Source of the DNA: Thermoleophilia bacterium
GTDB taxonomy: Bacteria > Actinomycetota > Thermoleophilia > UBA2241
Direction of reading: 5' to 3'
DNA: 35,694 nt
NCBI GenBank assembly: GCA_017882325.1
Contig: JADGPQ010000007.1
Coordinates: forward strand, 1 to 35,694
Numbering within the stretch: position 1 is the first letter of the stretch; each line of letters starts with the position of its first letter. Below the pieces are notes generated by a model. The model did no database searches, was not told the DNA's origin, and was given only the letters and a program-made list of their open reading frames with translations. Below, piece after piece: positions 2,958 to 15,266 of the stretch. The translations under genes and the position numbers were made by a program.

Positions 2958-4264
2958 CTACGCCTCCCACCGTCGTCGTCGTCGGTTCGCCGAACGCCGG
3001 CAAGTCCACTCTCGTGAACCGCCTGAGCGGCTCGCGTCAAGCCGTGGTGCACGAGACGCCGGGCGTGACCCGCGACCGCAAGGACGTCGAGGTGGAGTGG
3101 GAGGGCCGGATCATGTGCATGGTCGACACCGGCGGCTACGACACCGGCGCGGAGTCACCGTTCGCCGGGCACATCCGCGAGCAGGTCGAGCTGGCCATCG
3201 GCACGGCCGACGCGGTTCTTTTCGTGGTCGATGGCCGCGCCGGTCCGCTGACCGACGACTTCGAGATCGCGGACGTCCTGCGCCGCAGGGGCGTACCCGT
3301 CGTGCTCGTTGCCAACAAGCTCGATGACCCGGCGGCTGTGAGCGCCGCCCAGGAGTTGTACCAGCTCGGCCTCGGCGAGCCGCTGATCGTCTCCGCCACG
3401 CACGGCCTCGGTACCGGCGAGCTGCTCGATCGGCTGGTCGAGGAGTCCGGCGCGGAACGGCCCGGCGACGCCGGGCTCACCGGCGCGTCGGCCGAGATCC
3501 CGGTGGCCATCGTCGGGCGTCCCAACGCCGGCAAGTCATCGCTGTTCAACGCCATCGTCGGCGAGCCGCGCGCCATCGTCAGCGAGATCGCCGGCACCAC
3601 GCGCGACGCCATCGACACGGCCGTGGCGACGCAGGAGGGTACCTTCCGCTTCATCGACACGGCCGGCATGCGCAAAGCGGCCAAGGTGAGCGGCGTGGAG
3701 TACTACTCGTACCTTCGCAGTGTGCAGAGTCTGGACCGCGCTCACATCGCGGTGATCGTCGTCGACGCGACCCTGCGCTTCGGCGAGCTCGACCTGTCGA
3801 TCTGCACCGAGGCGACGCGCAACCACTGCGCCACGGTGATCGCCGTCAACAAGACGGACATCGCCGAGGCCGACATCGAGGAGATCGCCGGCATCGCGCG
3901 GCGCAAGCTGCGCCAGAGGCCGCTCGTCATCCCCGTCTCGGCTTTGACGCACCGCGGCGTGCGGCAACTGCTCACCGAGGTCGCCTCGCTGGAAGCTCAC
4001 TACAGCGCCCACCTCGCGACCGGCGAGTTGAACCGTGCCCTGGCGACGCTGGCCGCCGACCGGCCGCTCCCCATGAAGCGCGGCAAGCGTTTGAAGATGT
4101 ACTACATCGCTCAGTTCGGTACGTCGCCTCCGCGGTTCGCGATCGAGGTGAACGACCGGACGCTGGTGACGCGCGACTTCGGGTTCTTCGTCGAGAACCG
4201 TTTGCGGGCGCGCTTCGAGCTCGACGGGGTGCCGCTGGTGATCGACTTCAAGGGCAAGAAATGA
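2954..4264 (+). CDS. der: GTPase Der (EngA), 50S ribosome assembly factor
   Basis: A 436-residue double-GTPase that acts in maturation of the large ribosomal subunit. The first G domain has GSPNAGKST (P-loop), DTGGYD and NKLDD. The second has GRPNAGKSSLFNAI, DTAGMRK and NKTD. A KH-like C-terminal domain follows (from about residue 345, containing FGFFVENRLRARFELDG), with a lysine tail. The ATG overlaps the previous stop (ATGA), and the gene's own stop overlaps plsY in the same way. This suggests translational coupling through DUF512-der-plsY-gpsA. The frame is open far upstream, but the start at 2954 matches the family N-terminus exactly. A TACACT hexamer 6 nt upstream suggests an additional leaderless transcript. 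Confidence 0.97.
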   Translation: MTTPPTVVVVGSPNAGKSTLVNRLSGSRQAVVHETPGVTRDRKDVEVEWEGRIMCMVDTGGYDTGAESPFAGHIREQVELAIGTADAVLFVVDGRAGPLTDDFEIADVLRRRGVPVVLVANKLDDPAAVSAAQELYQLGLGEPLIVSATHGLGTGELLDRLVEESGAERPGDAGLTGASAEIPVAIVGRPNAGKSSLFNAIVGEPRAIVSEIAGTTRDAIDTAVATQEGTFRFIDTAGMRKAAKVSGVEYYSYLRSVQSLDRAHIAVIVVDATLRFGELDLSICTEATRNHCATVIAVNKTDIAEADIEEIAGIARRKLRQRPLVIPVSALTHRGVRQLLTEVASLEAHYSAHLATGELNRALATLAADRPLPMKRGKRLKMYYIAQFGTSPPRFAIEVNDRTLVTRDFGFFVENRLRARFELDGVPLVIDFKGKK

Positions 4265-6080: not shown

Positions 6081-7295
6081 GTGGAGAAGAGCAACTATCT
6101 GTTCACGTCGGAGTCGGTCACCGAAGGTCACCCCGACAAGCTCGCCGACCAGATCTCGGACGCCGTCCTCGACGCGATCCTCGCCGAAGACCCCTACGGC
6201 CGCGTGGCCTGTGAGACGCTGGTCACCACCGGCCTCGCCATGGTCGCGGGGGAGATCACCACGGAGTGCTACGTCGACATTCCCAAGATCGTCCGCCAGA
6301 CGGTCAAGGACGTCGGCTACACCAACGCTCTCTACGGCTACGACTACGAGACCTGCGGCGTCATGGTCGCCATCGACGAGCAGTCGCCGGACATCAGCCA
6401 GGGCGTCTCGCATGCCCTCGAGGTCCGCACCGACGTCAACGACGACGACGTCCTCGACGCGCAGGGCGCCGGTGACCAGGGCATGATGTTCGGGTTCGCC
6501 TGCACCGAGACGCCGGAGCTCATGCCGCTGCCCATCTCGCTGGCGCACAAGCTGTCGCGGCGCCTCGCCGAGGTGCGCAAGGCCGAGATCCTGCCCTACC
6601 TTCGCCCCGACGGTAAGTCGCAGGTCACCGTGAGGTACGAAGACGGCAAGCCGGTGGAGATCGTCAAGGTCGTACTCGCCTCGCAGCACGCCGAGAGCGC
6701 CGATCTGCAGAGCATCATCTATCCCGACCTTCTCGAACACGTCGTCGAGCCGATCCTGCCGAAGAACCTCTACGACGTCTCGAAGCTCGAAGAGATCACG
6801 GTCGTCAACGCCACCGGCAAGTTTGTCATCGGCGGCCCCATGGGCGACTGCGGCCTCACGGGCCGCAAGATCGTCGTGGACACGTATGGCGGGGCCGCAC
6901 CGCACGGCGGCGGCGCCTTCTCGGGCAAGGATCCGAGCAAGGTCGACCGCTCCGGCGCCTACGCGGCCCGTTACGTGGCCAAGAACGTCGTCGCCGCCGG
7001 CCTGGCCGAGCGCTGCGAGCTGCAGGTCGCTTACGCCATAGGCGTGGCGCATCCTGTGTCGCTGTTGGTCGACTGCCACGGCACGGAGAAGGTCTCCATC
7101 GCCACCATCGAGCAGCTTATCAAAGAGCACTTCGACCTGCGCCCGGCGGCGATCCTCCGAGACCTCGACCTGCGCCGGCCCATCTACAAGAAGACCGCCG
7201 CCTACGGCCATTTCGGCCGCAACGACCACGACTTCACGTGGGAGCGCACCGACAAGGCCTCAGCGCTGCGAGCCGCTGCCGGCCTCAAGGGCTGA
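6081..7295 (+). CDS. metK: S-adenosylmethionine synthetase
   Basis: 404-residue enzyme that makes S-adenosylmethionine from methionine and ATP. Signature motifs are present: [17 protein letters not shown] at residues 12-28, the ATP-binding [10 protein letters not shown] near residue 131, and the phosphate-binding [16 protein letters not shown] near 276. Length and end are normal for bacterial MetK. The GTG start is well supported by AGGAGG at 6071-6076 with a 4-nt gap. It is preceded by a promoter candidate and a leader of about 125 nt, so expression is probably independent of gpsA. The 3' side runs within 33 nt into priA, whose start codon is embedded in a long hairpin that might also act as the metK terminator. 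Confidence 0.97.
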
Positions 7296-7310
7296 GCCCC
7301 ATCCCGGCGC

Positions 7311-7350
7311 GGAAGACGGCGGCGTAGCGTGAGCTACGCCGCCGTCTTCC
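7311..7350 (+). repeat. Perfect 18-bp inverted repeat with GTGA loop covering the priA start
   Basis: The left arm GGAAGACGGCGGCGTAGC (7311-7328) is exactly complementary to 7333-7350. The four bases between them, GTGA, hold the priA start codon (GTG 7329-7331). As RNA this is an uninterrupted 18-bp GC-rich stem capped by a GNRA-type tetraloop. No T-run follows. It could be an I-shaped terminator for metK, a translation-initiation block on priA, or both. No other arm pair this long and perfect was noticed in the window. Confidence 0.9.
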
Positions 7351-9734
7351 CGCTCGTTCGCACGCGCGCCTTTGCCGGCGCCTTCGACTACTTCGTGCCG
7401 CCCGAGCTCGCCGGCAAGCTCGAACCGGGGGCGCTCGTCGCCGTCCAGCTGGGCTCTCAGACCGTCATCGGCGTCGTCCTCGAGCTGCGACGAGCGACCG
7501 CGCACGAAGGCCGCGTCTTGCCGGTGCGCGACCTCCTCGACGTCCCGTCCATCCCCGCCGATCTGCTGGAACTTGCGCACGAGGTGGAGAGCTACTACCT
7601 GTCCTCGTTCTCCGCCGCGTTGTCTCTGGTGTGCCCGCCGACCGGCGCCCTCAAGGTCGTGCGGCAGTACGAGCTCACGGCGGGCGGGCGCGCGGCCCGC
7701 GAAGCCGGCGAAGAAGGCCTCGATGAGGTCGCCGGCCTCAAAGTTCCGGCGGGTCCGCTCACGAAGCTCGGCGAGCGCTATCGGCGCAAGGGCTGGCTGC
7801 GCATCGCGTATCGCGTGTACGTCGTCGGGGCGACGAGGGTCAGCCGCGCGCTCGAACGCGGTGGCGAGACGCCGCCGCGCCTCGGCCCACGGCAGCGCGC
7901 CGCCCTGGAGCTCGTGGAGCGGTCCGGGGTCCTCGACGAGCGCTCACTGCGCGCCGCGACCGGCCTCTCGCTGCCGGCGCTCAGAAGGCTGCTCGAGGCC
8001 GGCGCGCTGGTTGACGCCGTGACCGACGCCGGGGATGCCTCCGCGATCTACGGCGGGGCAGGGGCGACGACGGGCGGCGAAGAGCCCGTGGCTCCGCCGC
8101 CCGTCGTCACTCAGGCCGTCCGCCTCCGGGCCTGTGCCAAGCTCGGCGACGCGCCTGACCTGCTTCCCGAGCAGCGCCGCGCGTTGCACGCCATCCTCTG
8201 CGAGGCGCGCCCCGGCGACGAGGTGCTCGTGCACGGGGTCACGGGGAGCGGCAAGACCGAGGTGTACCTGCAGGCCGCACAAGCCGCTCTGGAGGGCGGC
8301 CGTTCGGTGCTTCTCCTGGTGCCCGAGATCGGGCTGACCGGGCAGACGGTGGCCCGCGTGCGCGAGCGCTTCGCCGGCCAAGAGGTCGCAATACTGCATT
8401 CTGGTCTGACGGCACGCGAGCGACTGCTCGCCTATCGCGCGGTCGCCCGCGGCGACGTGCGCATCGTAGTGGGGGCGCGCTCGGCGGTGTTCGCGCCCCT
8501 GCGCGACCTGGGGCTCATCGTCGTAGACGAGGAGCACGACACCTCGTACAAGCAGGAGAGCGAGCCCGCCTACGACGCCCGCACGGTGGCTCGCTGGAGG
8601 GCGGGGCAGAGCGGCGCAGTGGTCGTGCTGGGTTCCGCCACGCCGAGCGTCGAGAGCTATGCCCGCGTGCCCCTGCACGTAGACTTGCGCATGCGTGTCG
8701 ACGGCTCGCAGCCGCCGGCGCTGGAGGTGGTGGACATGCGCGACCACCACGGGATCTTCTCCAGCCCGCTGTCGGAGGCGCTCGCCGCGACCGTGGACGC
8801 CGGTGACAAGGCGATCCTTTTCCTCAACCGTCGCGGCTTCGCCTCGTACCTGGTCTGCGATCACTGCGGCTTCACGTGGATATGCCCGCGCTGTGACGTG
8901 ACGCTGACTCTGTTCGGCGGCCACAGCCTGCGCTGCCGCACCTGCGGGCACGACGAGGCTGCGCCCGGCACGTGCCCGTCCTGCGGCAGCGCCGAACTCG
9001 TGCGCTACGGATTCGGCACCGAGCGCCTTGAGCGTGAGGTCGTCGGCCTGCTCCCTGGCGTGGAGCTGCTGCGCCTCGACTCCGACGTGGCCTCCTCCTA
9101 CGGGCGGCTACGCGCGGTGCTCGAGCGCTTCGCGCAGCCGGGACCCAAGGTGCTGGTGGGCACCCAGATGATCGCCAAGGGACACCACTTTCCCGACGTC
9201 ACGCTGGTCGGCGTGGTCAACGCCGACCTCACGCTCCACTTCCCCGACTTCCGCGCCGAAGAGCGCACCTTCGCGATGCTTGTGCAAGTGGGCGGCCGCA
9301 GCGGCCGCGGCGAGCACCCGGGACGGGTGATCGTGCAGACGCTGAGCCCCGAGGCGCGGCCGATCGCCCTGGCCGCTACCGGGCAGGAAGAGCGCTTCTA
9401 CGCCGAGGAGCTGGAGCGCCGCCGCGAGCTCGGCTATCCTCCGGCCGGGACCCTTGTCGGCCTCGAGCTCTCGGGGATGTCGGAAGACAAGGTCGGCATC
9501 GCCGGGCGCTTTACGGCCGCGCGCCTCACGGCTCGACTGACTCAGGGTGAGAGCGTCCTCGGCCCCGGCCCGTTATGGCGGGAGCGCGGCCGCCACGCCT
9601 GCCGGATCGTGGTTAAGACTACCGAAATGGGGGAAACTCTCGACACGTTGCGTGGCTGGCTCGGGGCCAATCGCGACAGGTTCGCCGCGCGGGGCGTGAG
9701 GATCGTGCCCGACGTGGACCCACAGTGGCTGTGA
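7329..9734 (+). CDS. priA: Primosomal replication restart helicase PriA
   Basis: 801-residue 3'-5' superfamily 2 helicase that reloads the replisome at stalled forks. The N-terminal DNA-binding domain has the typical FDYFVPPEL at residues 18-26. The Walker A motif GVTGSGKTEVYL is near residue 303 and the DEEH box near 399. Eight zinc-binding cysteines occur in four CxxC pairs (CDHCGFTWICPRCD and CRTCG...CPSCG) around residues 511-556. GTQMIAKGHHFPDV and GGRSGRGEHPG belong to the helicase C-terminal part. The GTG at 7329 is chosen because family homology begins just after it. The next in-frame start lies beyond conserved residues. No ribosome site is visible, since the start codon sits in the loop of an 18-bp hairpin. 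Confidence 0.95.
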   Translation: MSYAAVFPLVRTRAFAGAFDYFVPPELAGKLEPGALVAVQLGSQTVIGVVLELRRATAHEGRVLPVRDLLDVPSIPADLLELAHEVESYYLSSFSAALSLVCPPTGALKVVRQYELTAGGRAAREAGEEGLDEVAGLKVPAGPLTKLGERYRRKGWLRIAYRVYVVGATRVSRALERGGETPPRLGPRQRAALELVERSGVLDERSLRAATGLSLPALRRLLEAGALVDAVTDAGDASAIYGGAGATTGGEEPVAPPPVVTQAVRLRACAKLGDAPDLLPEQRRALHAILCEARPGDEVLVHGVTGSGKTEVYLQAAQAALEGGRSVLLLVPEIGLTGQTVARVRERFAGQEVAILHSGLTARERLLAYRAVARGDVRIVVGARSAVFAPLRDLGLIVVDEEHDTSYKQESEPAYDARTVARWRAGQSGAVVVLGSATPSVESYARVPLHVDLRMRVDGSQPPALEVVDMRDHHGIFSSPLSEALAATVDAGDKAILFLNRRGFASYLVCDHCGFTWICPRCDVTLTLFGGHSLRCRTCGHDEAAPGTCPSCGSAELVRYGFGTERLEREVVGLLPGVELLRLDSDVASSYGRLRAVLERFAQPGPKVLVGTQMIAKGHHFPDVTLVGVVNADLTLHFPDFRAEERTFAMLVQVGGRSGRGEHPGRVIVQTLSPEARPIALAATGQEERFYAEELERRRELGYPPAGTLVGLELSGMSEDKVGIAGRFTAARLTARLTQGESVLGPGPLWRERGRHACRIVVKTTEMGETLDTLRGWLGANRDRFAARGVRIVPDVDPQWL

Positions 9735-13352: not shown

Positions 13353-13370
13353 CAGACGGCACGATCAAGC

Positions 13371-13482
13371 TGCTTCAGGGCGGGGTGAGATCCCCCACCG
13401 GCGGTAACAGCCCGCGAGCCTCCTCGGAGGCCGACCAGGTGGAACTCCTGGGCCGACGGTCACAGTCCGGATGAAAGAAGCA
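13371..13482 (+). promoter_or_regulatory. FMN riboswitch (RFN element)
   Basis: The conserved RFN core is easily read: GGGCGGGGTGAGATCCCCCA near the 5' side, CCGGCGGTAACAGCCCGCGAG in the middle (13397-13417), and CCGACGGTCACAGTCCGGATG towards the 3' end (13453-13473). Helix P1 closes as TGCTTC (13371-13376) with GAAGCA (13477-13482). It senses FMN and controls the rib operon. A rho-independent terminator follows 24 nt later, so control is most simply by FMN-induced termination. Confidence 0.97.
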
Positions 13483-13506
13483 CGCTGCGACGCCTCGGCG
13501 TCGTCC

Positions 13507-14627: not shown

Positions 14628-15266
14628 GTGTTCACGGGGATCGTCGAGGAGCTCGGGACGCTGCGCAGTCTGCGCGTCGGCGAGAAGAGCGCGGCGCTGG
14701 ACGTCGTCGCCAGGGTCGTCACCGGCGGCGCGGCCGTCGGCGACAGCATCCTCACCGACGGCGTCTGCCTGACGATCACGGGTCTTCGCCCCGGAGGCTT
14801 CACCGCCGACGTCATGCCCGAGACCGTGCGGCGCACGACGCTCGCCGACAGACGGCCGGGCGACCGCCTCAACCTGGAGCGTGCTCTCACCCTGCGGTCA
14901 CGTCTCGGCGGGCACCTCGTGAGTGGGCACATCGACGGGGTCGGCCTGGTCACGGCCGTCATTCCGGAGGACAACGCGCTGGTCGTGGAGCTCGAAGCGC
15001 CGCAGGCCGTGTGCGACGTCAGCGTCGCGCAGGGATCGATAGCCGTGGACGGCGTGAGCCTGACGATCGCGGCCGTCGACGGGCGCCGTGTGCGCGTGTC
15101 CCTGATCCCGCACACGGCGGCCGTCACGACGCTGGGGCGGCTTGCTCCGGGCGTGCGGGTCAATCTCGAAGCAGACGTGATCGCCAAGTATGTATATGCG
15201 TTCGTCACGCGGCGCAAGCCCGGCGAGGGACTCACCTGGGAGAAGTTAGCGGAAGCGGGGTTTTGA
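14628..15266 (+). CDS. ribE: Riboflavin synthase alpha subunit
   Basis: 212-residue enzyme that dismutates two lumazine molecules into riboflavin. It is an internal duplication of two lumazine-binding barrels. Each repeat carries the family pattern: MFTGIVEELG at the start, DGVCLTITG and DGVSLTIAA at equivalent places, and GGHLVSGHIDG at the domain junction. The GTG start follows the ribD stop directly (14625-14627), with GATGGAG just upstream as ribosome site. The stop TGA shares its last base with the ATG of ribBA, so the rib genes are translated as a tight block. Confidence 0.96.
   Translation: MFTGIVEELGTLRSLRVGEKSAALDVVARVVTGGAAVGDSILTDGVCLTITGLRPGGFTADVMPETVRRTTLADRRPGDRLNLERALTLRSRLGGHLVSGHIDGVGLVTAVIPEDNALVVELEAPQAVCDVSVAQGSIAVDGVSLTIAAVDGRRVRVSLIPHTAAVTTLGRLAPGVRVNLEADVIAKYVYAFVTRRKPGEGLTWEKLAEAGF

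Follow-up and report, generated by a model that had tools for sequence, protein, structure and literature searches.

A perfect hairpin enclosing the priA start codon is a candidate U-less 3′-end hairpin of metK in a Thermoleophilia bacterium

Messenger RNA hairpins that sequester a start codon are known from translational operators and RNA thermometers. Among mycobacterial intrinsic terminators, U-less 'I-shaped' hairpins within 50 nt of stop codons are the predominant class according to a review (PMC12288462), which cites Unniraman 2001 and Ahmad 2020 for I-shaped terminators of mycobacteria and other GC-rich bacteria and also lists Czyz 2014, where a requirement for a U-tract is argued. In Streptomyces clavuligerus, 353 of 535 structured transcript 3′ ends fall into a class termed 'HS-U-lack', for which the authors consider two accounts, termination at I-shaped hairpins and the 3′ pattern shown by transcripts that depend on Rho (PMC8269248). 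Long perfect stems, including those in coding DNA, can also be explained in origin by the correction of quasipalindromes through template switching, as outlined in PMC8794818 and PMC7202029; this is a mutational origin and not a function, and conservation throughout a genus needs more than that. Among literature titles and abstracts, we found nothing on terminators that overlap a start codon or on metK–priA in Thermoleophilia.

The hairpin described here lies in a window of 35,694 nt (the whole stretch of DNA analysed), which is contig C44 of a 3.02-Mb assembly (328 contigs) from an uncultured genus of the actinobacterial class Thermoleophilia. On the forward strand, metK (6081–7295; methionine adenosyltransferase, 404 amino acids, GTG start, TGA stop at 7293–7295; TIGR01034, 564 bits) is followed after 33 nt by priA (7329–9734; replication restart helicase PriA, 801 amino acids; TIGR00595, 518 bits). 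The gap consists of a 15-nt spacer (7296–7310) and an 18-nt non-coding left arm (7311–7328), which is the exact reverse complement of priA coding bases 7333–7350. The preliminary description had reported a perfect 18-bp hairpin, and the two 18-nt arms are indeed 100% complementary, with 4 nt between them; of the repeats listed for the window, no other with a short loop has so long a perfect stem. The loop, GTGA (7329–7332), comprises the priA start codon and the first base of codon 2, as had also been noted, and the right arm (7333–7350) encodes PriA residues 2–8 (SYAAVFP, with the Ser and Pro codons partial), within a protein start that is conserved in relatives. GTG 7329 is the sole start codon between the metK TGA and the conserved PriA N-terminal stretch YAAVFPLVRTRAF, so the priA start is well placed; the protein encoded from it is MSYAAVFPLVRTRAF. 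The bases directly after the stem (7351–7360), CGCTCGTTCG, are likewise coding.

In several respects this hairpin resembles the I-shaped terminators: it has a long GC-rich stem, a short (4-nt) loop, no U-tract and a position less than 50 nt from a stop codon (here 15 nt), and many similar stems follow gene ends in the same genome. It differs in that its 3′ arm is protein-coding and its loop is the start codon of the next gene, and termination here is predicted. Of the 40 hairpin bases, 22 belong to the priA coding sequence, whereas a typical I-shaped terminator lies outside the next gene, although this is not strictly required. The features of the HS-U-lack ends of S. clavuligerus match as well, but those are measured 3′ ends and the present hairpin is predicted from sequence only (PMC8269248). 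With the start-codon-sequestering hairpins it shares a start codon inside secondary structure; here, however, the stem is very long and perfect and stands right behind another gene, and neither a sensor nor a partner for switching was found. A conventional U-tract terminator was rejected, as no U-tract follows the stem and a U-tract scan found no terminator-like site at the metK–priA junction. A mobile or repeated element was rejected too: with the locus and its own reverse complement excluded, the genome holds no second full copy, the best partial match being 80% over 44 nt. Nor does the hairpin belong to a known RNA family, since an Rfam search of the window gave nothing at this position. 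The sole match was an FMN riboswitch (RF00050, 104.8 bits) at 13367–13486, directly upstream of ribD–ribE–ribBA–ribH.

Chance was excluded in several ways. When the priA coding sequence was fixed and just the 28 nt upstream of it were shuffled, the local fold of −47.8 kcal/mol compared with a mean of −22.2 kcal/mol (z = −7.86), and none of 500 shuffles reached it. The RNA fold of 7270–7390 (121 nt) gave −72.1 kcal/mol (z = −5.35; 0 of 200 shuffles), and three Markov controls of 788 kb each (2.4 Mb simulated) contained no stem longer than 13 bp, bearing out the earlier judgement that such a stem is very unlikely by chance. The fold around the priA start is dominated by one stem, and this start ranks second by structure among the 576 called gene starts of the genome.

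We then compared the junction with those of relatives, which include the Thermoleophilia metagenome-assembled genomes AlinenLipids_bin-3389, Loclat_bin-16816 and UBA2241. Five species of the genus have a readable metK–priA junction: this genome (G000), G003, G004, G005 and G006. Left out of the comparison were G002, whose MetK is 96% identical and whose contig ends 7 nt past the metK stop, and G001, whose contig starts about 100 nt inside priA. All five have kept a strong hairpin centred on the priA start, with a non-coding arm that is not identical in sequence. The preliminary description had proposed that pairing is maintained alongside coding. Fold energies were −47.8, −40.1, −39.9, −39.5 and −37.4 kcal/mol, with z-scores from −7.9 to −2.4. 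Over the 21 positions outward from the start, Watson–Crick plus G–U pairs numbered 18 + 0 in this genome, 20 + 0 in G003, 17 + 2 in G005, 16 + 2 in G006 and 15 + 1 in G004. Across the five sequences, 86.7% of cells paired in register, against at most 66.7% when the arms were slid. The left arms of the other four species match this genome at 13–16 of 18 bases, and third codon positions of metK and priA in the same species are 0.60–0.77 identical to it. We conclude that the hairpin is real, non-random and conserved in the genus.

Compensatory change, which had been proposed as a check, yielded one clear case. In G003 a Phe codon has changed from TTC to TTT and the opposite left-arm base from G to A, with the stem enlarged to 20 of 21 pairs; because the other four species share the GC state, the double change is probably derived. 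This single both-sided pair in five sequences is not significant (96 of 500 shuffles were as good), and weak covariation is to be expected where the protein constrains one of the two arms. The metK protein tree is too poorly resolved to order the genus, and a tree from metK and priA DNA is better and still partly unresolved. In G005 (GTGA) and G003 (TTGA) the loop contains the start codon, as does the larger loop of G006, whereas in G004 the hairpin flanks the start. GTGA fits the GNRA pattern, as first described, but a GNRA tetraloop is not a conserved element, since G003 has UUGA; the GNRA character arises because GTG plus the AGC sequence produces it. Fusion of MetK to PriA by stop-codon read-through was also rejected, the two being in frame here and out of frame in G003 and G006. 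In two of the seven assemblies from this genus, a contig boundary falls no more than about 100 nt from the hairpin (G002, a contig end at locus L008, and a contig start at locus L038); a strong stem may have hampered sequencing or assembly there, or this may be coincidence.

Outside the genus the picture changes: the sister genera g2, g4 and g5 have no hairpin at this junction (z from −1.0 to +1.1). Some sister species have recognisable ribosome sites instead (GGAG with 5 nt of spacing in G013, GGAGG in G010). Many members of the class have no hairpin between metK and priA, and some species of families f6 and f4 carry strong but unrelated hairpins at the corresponding place behind metK, those of f6 having U-tracts and those of f4 having none. 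Thus metK does not generally need a hairpin. Long stems at gene ends are also rare in G006 and in two g4 genomes.

In this genome such stems follow a clear pattern. Over 788 kb, with approximate gene calls from a simple codon model, stems of at least 12 bp occur at 4.61 per 10 kb of intergenic DNA in tandem gaps and 5.45 in convergent gaps but at only 0.44 in divergent gaps, a tenfold depletion. Although intergenic DNA makes up only 12.6% of the total, 33 of the 40 stems of at least 13 bp are intergenic; 25 of the 40 follow a stop codon at a distance of no more than 80 nt, compared with 7% of random positions, and a T-rich tail follows only 3. Stems in tandem gaps begin mostly 5–60 nt past the upstream stop. 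This is the picture expected for U-less end-of-transcript hairpins. The strength of the metK–priA hairpin and its distance from the stop are typical of this genome; the exception is that it overlaps the next gene, whereas in the other tandem gaps at least 23 nt separate the stem from the next start. A 14-bp hairpin with a GAAA loop at 14683–14714 of locus L196, 32 nt after a subtilase gene and with TGTCTTTG behind it, overlaps the GTG called as the start of a SpoIIE-phosphatase membrane protein; this start is less certain than that of priA, and the hairpin may be a second terminator overlapping a start in this genome. Many of the perfect stems in tandem and convergent gaps (loci L181–L260) appear to have G-rich left arms and C-rich right arms, a bias that would serve transcription from either side because a perfect stem reads alike from both strands.

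The preliminary description had left the choice between an I-shaped metK terminator that overlaps priA and a structural switch on priA translation. The former fits best, because the long perfect stems of this genome follow gene ends, are seldom accompanied by a U-tract and are scarce in divergent gaps. We therefore favour, at slightly better than an even chance, the reading that the hairpin is the U-less I-shaped 3′-end hairpin of the metK transcript, displaced downstream to the point of covering the priA start, so that in this genus the first codons of priA supply its 3′ arm. After RNA polymerase has passed 7350, the RNA would fold into the 18-bp stem at about −48 kcal/mol. Its first base is the 16th after the metK stop, which, from the size of the ribosome footprint, would lie outside the cover of a terminating ribosome; on the same ground we rejected translational coupling by that ribosome. 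The stem would then halt a large part of transcription, or set the 3′ end after trimming by Rho or exonucleases. Full termination would silence the priA helicase gene, as a search of 6900–7500 found no sigma-70-like promoter for priA, and read-through is for the same reason the likely source of priA mRNA.

Read-through transcripts would carry the priA start in a closed loop with no free ribosome site. The earlier statement that no ribosome site lies in reach holds in essence: the left arm does begin with a weak purine tract, GGAAG (7311–7315), but it sits 13 nt from the start and within the stem. PriA synthesis would accordingly be slow compared with that of MetK, and the hairpin probably also limits how much priA is expressed from the metK transcript. 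Such a hairpin could plausibly serve to keep a helicase scarce when its gene follows that of an abundant metabolic enzyme. Termination, partial read-through and low priA translation are what we infer from the DNA. A further step, that the element was selected for both purposes, with the first codons of priA doubling as the terminator's 3′ arm and read-through priA start-locked to fix a low PriA:MetK ratio through transcription and translation together, is tentative and on balance we doubt it. Against the metK 3′-end hairpin stand the missing U-tract and the dispute over whether U-less hairpins terminate alone, the lack of a hairpin at this junction in sister genera and much of the class, the rarity of long gene-end stems in G006 and two g4 genomes, and covariation limited to one pair. 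If the reading is true, the same bases serve as terminator and as the start of a coding sequence, so that a single structure can accommodate the end of one gene and the beginning of the next. Since the replication-restart helicase encoded downstream must still be expressed, the locus would also provide a natural test of whether hairpins lacking a U-tract really halt transcription in GC-rich actinobacteria.

The strongest alternative is a dedicated control of priA translation, in which metK and priA share one transcript and the hidden start is exposed when a helicase, protein, temperature or ligand opens the stem. Consistent with this, G000, G003, G005 and G006 all have the start in the middle of the hairpin and in G004 the hairpin flanks it, the presence of the hairpin in the genus accompanies the loss of the ribosome sites recognisable in sister species, and priA has the second most structured start in the genome. 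The position in the loop adds little, however, because its register is set by ancestry and coding. A perfect 18-bp stem is also far stronger than typical switches, no alternative pairing partner, aptamer or Rfam match was found at the hairpin, and comparable stems in this genome follow genes and do not sit at starts. With evidence on both sides, we regard a priA-specific switch as unlikely.

A third explanation is that the hairpin is a mutational relic with little or no function, left when template switching during replication perfected an imperfect inverted repeat at metK–priA. Template switching is reported in PMC8794818 to create and maintain RNA hairpins. Such events appear common in the sister species G013, which has about 129 stems of at least 12 bp per Mb against 16 in this genome. 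Many perfect hairpins of 14–29 bp, mostly with 3–6-nt loops, lie inside its genes (contig C111; for example at 3419–3480 of locus L279, 16644–16697 of L278 and 4395–4429 of L277), and where these in-gene stems are perfect, their G009 and G006 homologues are not, as would be expected if template switching had corrected quasipalindromes in G013. At metK–priA the pairing is best in this genome and G003 and weakest in G004, and it is weaker in both G004 and G006 than in this genome; the clear perfect-versus-imperfect cases are elsewhere, in G013. Template switching may well be the origin of the hairpin, but persistence in five species, at the third-position divergence, arm conservation and z-scores given above, argues that there is more to it. 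The perfect stems of this genome moreover avoid coding and divergent DNA, and we consider a relic quite improbable, though it deserves to be taken seriously.

Leaderless genes are common in actinobacteria, and a priA mRNA of its own beginning at GTG 7329, with the hairpin forming only in metK transcripts and never hindering priA, would reconcile a strong terminator with priA expression, but the promoter search of 6900–7500 and the bases 7–12 upstream of the GTG, which read CGGCGG and not TANNNT, speak against this, and we give it very little credence.

A separate observation concerns another contig of the same genome (C61), where an MttB-family trimethylamine methyltransferase gene (PF06253; locus L240, 2931–4499) contains one in-frame TAG at 4011–4013 after which the frame continues, and this TAG is likely a pyrrolysine codon in a Thermoleophilia genome.
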